From positions 1 through 64,000 of the forward strand of contig NZ_WWER01000001.1 in the NCBI RefSeq assembly GCF_009857885.1: a DNA stretch of 64,000 nt, written 5' to 3'. The notes under the pieces were generated by a model. That model was given only the letters and a program-made list of their open reading frames with translations, made no database searches and was not told the origin of the DNA. The stretch is from Pusillimonas sp. TS35 (GTDB taxonomy: Bacteria; Pseudomonadota; Gammaproteobacteria; Burkholderiales; Burkholderiaceae_B). Position numbers and translations under genes: made by a program. Shown piece by piece: positions 21,962-23,950 of this stretch (position 1 is its first letter; each line of letters begins with the position of its first letter).

Positions 21962-22225
21962 TTAGCCTTTGCGCACGGTGCCGGCAGTGCGTGCGAAACG
22001 GGCGCGGAATTTTTCGACGCGGCCGGTTTCGACGATGCGTGTCTGGGCGCCCGTGTAGAAGGGGTGCGATTCAGACGTGACGTCGCATTTGAACAGCGGG
22101 TAGGTTACGCCGTCAAGCTCAATGGATTCGCGGCTGTTAAGCGTGGAACGCGAAATGAACTTGTTGCCGGTTTGCTGGTCGAGGAACACCACTTCGCGGT
22201 ATTCGGGGTGCACGCCTTCTTTCAT
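21962..22225 (-). CDS. rpmE2: 50S ribosomal protein L31 type B
   Basis: An 87-aa L31: MKEGVHPEYREVVFLDQQTG followed by the SHPFYTGAQTRIVETGRVEKFRARF segment. The zinc-coordinating cysteines of the type A protein are absent, which marks the zinc-independent type B paralogue, often induced under zinc limitation. It is monocistronic with its own terminator. Confidence 0.95.
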   Translation of the reverse strand: MKEGVHPEYREVVFLDQQTGNKFISRSTLNSRESIELDGVTYPLFKCDVTSESHPFYTGAQTRIVETGRVEKFRARFARTAGTVRKG

Positions 22226-22384: not shown

Positions 22385-23950
22385 TCATAGATCGGTACGG
22401 AGCTTCCACAACTCCGGGAACAGGACAATGTCCAGCCGTGTGCGCAGGTAGGCGACTCCAGATGTTCCGCCGGTGCCGCGCTTGAAGCCGATAATCCGCT
22501 CTACCGTGGTGACGTGGCGAAAGCGCCACAGGCGGAAGGCGTCTTCGAGATCCGTGAGTTTTTCGCCGAGCTGGTAGAGATCCCAATAAGTGTCAGGCTG
22601 TCGATACACCGTCAGCCAGGCTTTTTCGACTTCGTCGCTGGCGGTATAGGGCGCGCTCCAGTCTCGACTGAGGCAGTCGGCCGGTATGGGGAGGCCTTGG
22701 CGGTGCAGCGCCCGCAGCGCCTCGTCATAAAGTGAAGGGGCTTGGTAAGCGTGCTGCACCAGGGCATATAGATGCGGCCGATGGGCGTGCGGCGCGAGCA
22801 TTGCGGCGTTTTTGTTGCCTAGCATGAACTCGATCTGGCGATACTGGTAGCTCTGGAAGCCGCTGGATTGCGCCAGATAGGGGCGAAGGGCGGAGTATTC
22901 GGGGGGTGTCATGGTGGCCAATACATCCCAGGCATGCACCAGCTGCTCCATGATCTTGCTGACGCGTGCCAGTTTCTTGAAGCAGGGCTGGAGCCGATCG
23001 GCCGCCAGGTCGGCCCGAGCGGCGGCCAACTCATGCAGCATGAGTTTCATCCATAGCTCGCTCGTCTGATGCTGGATGATGAACAGCATCTCGTTGTGTT
23101 CAGGCGAGCGAGGGTGCTGCGCGCCCAGCAGTTCGTCCAGGTGCAGGTAATCGCCGTAGCTCATGTTGTGTGGGGTGTCTGGCTGCGTAGCTTCGTTCGC
23201 GAGACAAGGGCCCAAGGCGGGCGTGGCCGTACCAGGCGTGGCAATGTCGGCCCTGACATGGGTGGGTTGGGACTGCGAGATGGTTGTGGCGGGCAGGCTG
23301 CGCAAGACGGCCCTGACCGGGCTGGCGTCGGCCTGCGCCAGAGCCAGAGGCAGGGCGATGAGTTCATAGTCGCCGGGTGGGACGTCATCCAGCAGGAGGT
23401 TTTCAAGTACGCGCATGTCGTGCCGCGCGATGGTTTGATGGCTGTCCAGGGTTTTGCTGTGAGCGGGGTCGATGCTGGGGGTGTCCAGCCCAATCAGCAC
23501 AGTGCCCCGAGCAGCCAGCAGATCGATGGTGGCGGGGGCAAAGGCGGCGAAGTCGTCGGTCCACGCATCTGTGCTGGCTCGCGCGCGCGTTCGCACGAGG
23601 ATGCGGGGCGGCGCGTCGTTCAGATAAGGAACAAGATGCTCTGGCAGAATCAGGGGCCCGCCGCTTAGCACATGGATAACGCGGCAGGGGCCGAGGTAGG
23701 GGGCGAGCGGCAGGGCGCCCGTGGGCAGGCCGTCGGCCTGGTAATGCAGAGGGGCGTCGGCGTGCGCGCCCACATGCGGCGATAGCGTGATGGCGCTGAC
23801 ATTGACCGGGTCGTCCGGGCCGAGCGTGGCCGTCCAGCACTGCGAGTATGGCGTATCGCCCGGAAACACGGGCGAGTTGACGGACACCTGCGGAGAGATA
23901 TCCCACAACGCGTCGGCCTGCTGCACTGCGGGGCGGTTTGAGAGATTCAT
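22385..23950 (-). CDS. kynBA: Fused kynurenine formamidase (KynB) - tryptophan 2,3-dioxygenase (KynA)
   Basis: One uninterrupted 521-aa frame contains two enzymes of the kynurenine pathway. Residues 1 to about 222 are a cyclase-family kynurenine formamidase with metal ligands H59-x3-H63-x-D65 and the typical ending [18 protein letters not shown]. Residues 223-262 form a low-complexity linker. Residues 263-521 are tryptophan 2,3-dioxygenase: [13 protein letters not shown] (F290 and H294 match the substrate-pocket F51/H55 of characterised TDO), [10 protein letters not shown], and the haem-His segment [14 protein letters not shown] with GTGGTSG. Tryptophan would be oxidised to N-formylkynurenine by the C-terminal half and hydrolysed to kynurenine by the N-terminal half. 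The internal Met263 (plus 23162-23164) has no Shine-Dalgarno sequence, so separate initiation is not supported. I chose ATG 23950 because the frame upstream is not KynB-like. Confidence 0.9.

Follow-up and report, generated by a model that had tools for sequence, protein, structure and literature searches.

The locus at positions 22385 to 23950 of the window (the entire stretch of 64,000 nucleotides of Pusillimonas sp. TS35 DNA which was analysed) raises the question of whether two enzymes for consecutive steps of tryptophan breakdown, kynurenine formamidase (KynB) and tryptophan 2,3-dioxygenase (TDO; KynA), are encoded here as a single protein and, if so, how such a gene arose and what its product might do. 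We propose, with a probability of roughly three in four, that adjacent kynB and kynA genes underwent a lineage-specific fusion in situ, thus giving rise to a predicted bifunctional enzyme which would convert tryptophan to kynurenine.

Extent and domain content of the frame

A single open frame of 521 codons runs on the minus strand from an ATG at 23950 to a TGA at 22385-22387 and contains no internal stops; an alternative TTG start further upstream in the same frame would yield a product of 595 amino acids. The features discussed below are as follows.

22385 to 23950, minus strand: fused kynB-kynA frame, 521 codons plus TGA stop (open reading frame listing; both NCBIfam equivalog models above cut-off)
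23285 to 23950, minus strand: KynB (kynurenine formamidase) half, residues 1 to 222 (TIGR03035 over residues 15 to 219; PDB relatives 4cob, 4cog and 4co9)
23165 to 23284, minus strand: linker, residues 223 to 262 (low model confidence; devoid of the kynB stop, the kynA ATG and the AxLDF motif; includes a 45-nt stretch weakly repeating the 3' end of kynB)
22388 to 23164, minus strand: KynA (tryptophan 2,3-dioxygenase) half, residues 263 to 521 (TIGR03036 over residues 261 to 521; alignment to 2nox and 2nw7)
21962 to 22225, minus strand: downstream neighbor, presumably rpmE (ribosomal protein L31-like), also present in five relatives (open reading frame listing and locus comparison)

The NCBIfam arylformamidase model TIGR03035 matches residues 15 to 219 of the product (model positions 2 to 206 of 206; score of 288.2 bits, cut-off 223.05), while the tryptophan 2,3-dioxygenase model TIGR03036 matches residues 261 to 521 (model positions 4 to 264 of 264; 431.6 bits against a cut-off of 390.7), and both Pfam PF04199 and PF03301 are above their cut-offs on the fused protein. 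One unbroken frame was, therefore, found to carry two complete domains for consecutive steps, and the 521-residue in-frame KynB-KynA fusion described in the sequence-only reading is borne out by the lack of an internal stop and by the near-full-length matches of both equivalog models. The boundaries proposed at that time (residues 1 to 222, a 40-residue linker and residues 263 to 521) are also consistent with the present data, as KynB homology extends to about residues 219 to 222 and Met263 opens the conserved KynA core, which leaves a joint of 40 residues.

The N-terminal half is, by family model, a bacterial kynurenine formamidase, for which the hydrolysis of N-formylkynurenine is predicted. 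Its metal site of H59, H63 and D65 is present as originally claimed: when mapped by offset, the metal ligands His50, His54, Asp56, His161 and Glu173 of BaKynB correspond to H59, H63, D65, H171 and E183, while the BaKynB residues His60 and Ser149 correspond to H69 (a putative base) and S159, the roles of the metal ligands, the proton-accepting histidine and Ser149 being those given in the BaKynB report (PMC4243253). With respect to the bacterial KynB structures (PDB 4cob, 4cog and 4co9), the whole domain is alike by sequence, as is the metal site, and the fold match carries a high rmsd. Bacterial KynB is, according to that report, a free dimer with subunits of approximately 23 kDa (PMC4243253), whereas KynB here makes up the first portion of a chain of 521 residues.

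Among solved structures, the best matches by sequence are TDO from Ralstonia (2nox) and from Xanthomonas (2nw7) and, for KynB, entries 4cob and 4cog. Alignment of the KynA half demonstrated that Y265, Y268, F290, H294, R356, S363, G364, H479 and T493 are kept, equating in that order to Y24, Y27, F51, H55, R117, S124, G125, H240 and T254 of the Xanthomonas TDO, which we take to be haem and substrate positions. The metal-site, haem and substrate positions being present by alignment or offset, the catalytic landmarks are retained in both halves, as had been asserted. Relative to the bacterial TDO structures 2nox and 2nw7, the whole domain and its haem and substrate positions are alike; unlike known KynA, however, its N terminus bears another enzyme, which ends two residues before the Tyr-x-x-Tyr-Leu segment.

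The AlphaFold model of the fused protein (mean pLDDT of 75.2, pTM of 0.51) consists of two folded parts connected by a low-confidence joint, with pLDDT values below 50 for residues 225 to 267 and also for KynB residues 27 to 39 and 47 to 60, the latter including H59. Foldseek matched the model to TDO and KynB crystal structures, with an rmsd of 5.8 to 8.7 Å to the best chains of each. The model suggests that the linker is probably disordered, and it places the two domains relative to each other with low confidence. TDO is a tetramer in which, in the human enzyme, the N-terminal residues Tyr42, Tyr45 and Leu46 lie in the active site of the neighboring subunit (PMC5071832). Mapping by motif indicates that Y265, Y268 and L269 are the likely equivalents of these residues and, because they directly follow the linker, the tether would end close to a dioxygenase site. 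A KynA-type tetramer bearing two KynB dimers is a plausible arrangement.

The kynB-kynA locus and its junction in relatives

The same row of genes surrounds kynB and kynA in all five relatives compared (the genus-mates G073, G075 and G076, and G125 and G211 from other genera), and comprises dsbA-like, maiA, ispH, slpA, radC, kynB, kynA, rpmE, PMT-like and MATE-like genes, where the names of the neighbors are putative assignments from their sequences. The locus is, therefore, considered to be orthologous and the fusion to have arisen in place. In Allopusillimonas and related genera, kynB and kynA are separate genes which share this locus, order and strand and specify two proteins, the kynB stop being followed by an in-frame kynA ATG, whereas the window harbors one frame. 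Identity to four genus-mates and to G125 and G211 (loci L113, L114 and L116 to L119) is 71 to 78% for KynB and 85 to 87% for KynA, and the top-ranking named relatives in the genome collection (among the best 80 of 584) are Allopusillimonas ginsengisoli, Achromobacter and Bordetella species. The domain order, formerly interpreted as reversed with respect to the reactions, is merely the kynB-kynA gene order of the relatives. The kynBAU operon, cited in the sequence-only reading for its separate genes, is not the arrangement at this locus: the kynureninase gene (kynU) is located on the same contig at a distance of approximately 525 kb (G000 contig C11, 548952-550133; L164), and the pathway is thus not encoded as an operon. 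The genome has a single dioxygenase copy, and a search of it with the fused protein returned the fused gene alone; two more cyclase-family genes, neither of which is matched by this query, make another formamidase possible.

Many relatives keep kynB and kynA approximately 1.3 to 1.6 kb apart, as if another gene were located between them; these loci (many of L061 to L111, and also L020, L030 and L065) are mostly of the Rubrivivax and Polaromonas types, with a few of the Bordetella type.

Comparison of 89 distinct adjacent kynB-kynA junctions identified one as fused (that of the window) and 88 as separate. The kynB stop is positioned 0 to 12 codons past the end of KynB homology in all of the separate junctions, with 71 to 285 nt between this stop and the KynA core, and in 35 of the 88 the two genes occupy the same frame, parted by stops. 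An in-frame ATG upstream of the KynA core, which every one of the 88 relatives possesses, is absent from the gene of the window, as is the N-terminal A-x-[LM]-[DENS]-[FY] (AxLDF) stretch, which occurs within the 14 residues before the core in 87 of the 88 (the exception, L203, reads TQLDF). The loss of one stop is consequently insufficient to account for the fusion, because the ATG of kynA has also gone, together with the N-terminal motif conserved in KynA. This stretch is a feature of the relatives compared rather than a defining one for TDO at large, and alignment places a Leu at the Phe/Tyr position of the motif in the Xanthomonas TDO, the residues before that point being outside the alignment. 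Its loss could result in a weaker KynA.

With regard to the source of the linker, E253, Q256 and D258 match the usual motif region in an ungapped reading, and both replacement and erosion of the original stretch are, therefore, possible origins. The kynA-locus matches listed in a search with the junction DNA begin no more than 4 nt from the Met263 codon, with the exception of G004, in which the match begins 23 nt before it, and this search returned no match in three of the four genus-mates. A gapped 45-nt match between the linker and the 3' end of kynB attained a score of 31, which none of 1000 plain shuffles reached; 13 of 5000 dinucleotide shuffles did so, as did 2 out of 1231 control pieces and a single tile (kynB itself) out of 1179 from the window. 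No such similarity to the kynB 3' end was evident at the one relative junction assessed (L113), for which 188 of 300 shuffles performed as well. The match may be a trace of the origin of the fusion; derivation of the linker by tandem duplication from the 3' end of kynB is suggestive only. A 28-column DNA match to the linker (92.9%, one gap) was rejected as a sign of derivation from elsewhere, as it sits in an unrelated gene, presumably glutamate-cysteine ligase-like, and looks like chance; the locus is common to many relatives, three of which loci were inspected.

Predicted function and alternative readings

According to the proposed scheme, replacement or erosion of the stop of kynB, along with the start of kynA and the N-terminal stretch of its product, would have left the 40-residue in-frame linker, and translation from the kynB start would generate one protein of approximately 57 kDa, whose N-terminal metal-dependent formamidase and C-terminal haem dioxygenase would convert tryptophan to kynurenine in two steps. 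We infer that the cell produces this protein and keeps it intact, with both sites active, and that a KynA-type tetramer would carry KynB-type dimers. The likeliest gain is a fixed 1:1 supply and co-localisation of consecutive enzymes, true channelling of N-formylkynurenine being a weaker possibility, and a nearly neutral fusion is also possible. A more ambitious version, by which the linker would be anchored by the TDO segment entering the active site of the neighboring subunit, thus holding the KynB dimers near the TDO sites such that N-formylkynurenine is handed over without release by a bifunctional enzyme under selection, is considered unlikely. Adjacent pathway genes commonly fuse. In the present case, genus-mates still carry the unfused pair among the same neighbors, providing a before-and-after system for the effect of covalent linkage on two consecutive enzymes of tryptophan breakdown. 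The locus also bears on how much of the KynA N terminus is dispensable and, if its product is active, would allow a single gene to take tryptophan to kynurenine.

The alternative which survives best is that the frame is indeed fused, yet free KynA is also, or mainly, produced, either from an internal start (Met263 or a TTG located 17 codons upstream of it) or through cleavage of the linker. We regard this as possible though not favored; it overlaps the proposal of a bifunctional fusion, and the likelihoods assigned to the various readings are not expected to add to one. Proteases could cut the linker if it is disordered as modeled, and the conserved KynA core starts with Met263; furthermore, the ATG of the fused frame is itself preceded by a Shine-Dalgarno-like word of only three bases, and weak initiation is, therefore, already in play. 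Met263, however, has no Shine-Dalgarno-like word of at least three bases, and the upstream TTG has only three, which argues against internal initiation. While the sequence-only reading was correct in that Met263 lacks a ribosome binding site, this hardly discriminates and carries little weight in favor of the fusion, because the frame's own ATG and 5 of the 17 kynA starts of relatives (L032, L046, L048, L060 and L084, with three bases only, the other 12 having four to seven) are equally poor. The lost upstream kynA ATG and the lost KynA N-terminal motif represent better evidence as far as the sequence comparison is concerned.

A sequence or assembly error, in which an indel in the linker conceals an ordinary gene pair with the kynB TGA overlapping the kynA ATG (as ATGA) and a short KynA beginning at Met263, appears very unlikely. 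All three forward frames are open through the linker up to Met263, and a single uncorrected indel would thus alter the frame that is read; shifted to frame +1, kynB would terminate exactly at the TGA overlapping the ATG of Met263. The coding signal of the linker is also weak, frame 0 scoring 0.01 bits per codon against 0.44 ± 0.16 for genes of the window. Frame 0 is nevertheless the best of the six, though only slightly above one reverse frame (the other forward frames scored -0.33 and -0.28, and the reverse frames -0.26, -0.08 and -0.90). The longest homopolymer in codons 216 to 266 is CCCC, so that the stretch is not obviously error-prone, and the assembly comprises 25 contigs, with a genome completeness of 99.98%. 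Moreover, an indel would restore neither the upstream ATG nor the AxLDF stretch, and the junction is, therefore, abnormal under either reading.

With respect to divergence, each half has a dN far lower than its dS in the comparison with every one of nine relatives (dS being saturated in several and infinite for L115), which points to constraint since the relatives split. Mean identity to relatives is 74.7% for the KynB half, against 71.9 to 74.2% among the relatives, and 85.9% for the KynA half, against 86.3 to 88.3%, slightly the lowest of the six compared. Divergence of both halves appears ordinary by these measures, also beside the neighboring genes; the dN/dS and identity values span the whole time since the relatives split, and selection cannot, therefore, be placed after the fusion. 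That the locus is decaying, with the fusion as a damaging mutation en route to pathway loss, would accord with the missing KynA N-terminal stretch, the marginally low KynA identity and the absence of a dioxygenase match in 151 of the 268 family genomes (such absence thus being common), but is highly doubtful given the ordinary divergence, the low dN, the retained catalytic positions, the kynureninase kept in the genome and the reported crystallisation with haem and substrate of a Xanthomonas TDO with Leu at the Phe/Tyr place of the motif.

Distribution of the fusion

The dioxygenase was detected in 117 of the 268 family genomes, including that of the window, and the fused protein served as query against each of these (in sets of 13, 1 [G024] and 103), no stop-free match over both halves being found besides the window's own. 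Nine genomes with long open frames (G094, G023, G194, G196, G001, G005, G017, G043 and G186) yielded either two matches each or a stop, and G012, which seemed open over both halves, has a TGA at its locus (L200). As a separate observation, seven of the eight g4 genomes compared (G055 and G057 to G062) possess the dioxygenase and gave no KynB-like match, and another formamidase may, therefore, serve there.

Beyond the family, no other fusion was identified in overlapping draws of 399 genomes from the order and 369 from the class, as judged by coordinates and open-frame lengths, nor, by the same criteria, among the matches listed for a draw of 398 genomes from the phylum, which overlaps both; a distant fusion aligning as two pieces could be missed in these three draws. 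Among the papers listed by literature searches on the fusion and on a bifunctional enzyme, no KynB-KynA fusion was apparent either. The fusion, known from one assembly of one species, is so far singular, and the KynB-KynA pairing is probably new as far as the genome searches and these literature listings reach.

Matches were also present in 129 plasmid records and, among the 20 of these that were listed, one, from Niveispirillum, covers more than 80% of the query. It is not a fusion, as kynA is followed by kynB in a different, overlapping frame. This plasmid locus (L182, 2402-3909) thus presents overlapping kynA and kynB genes in the order opposite to that of the window, and is unannotated in the collection.
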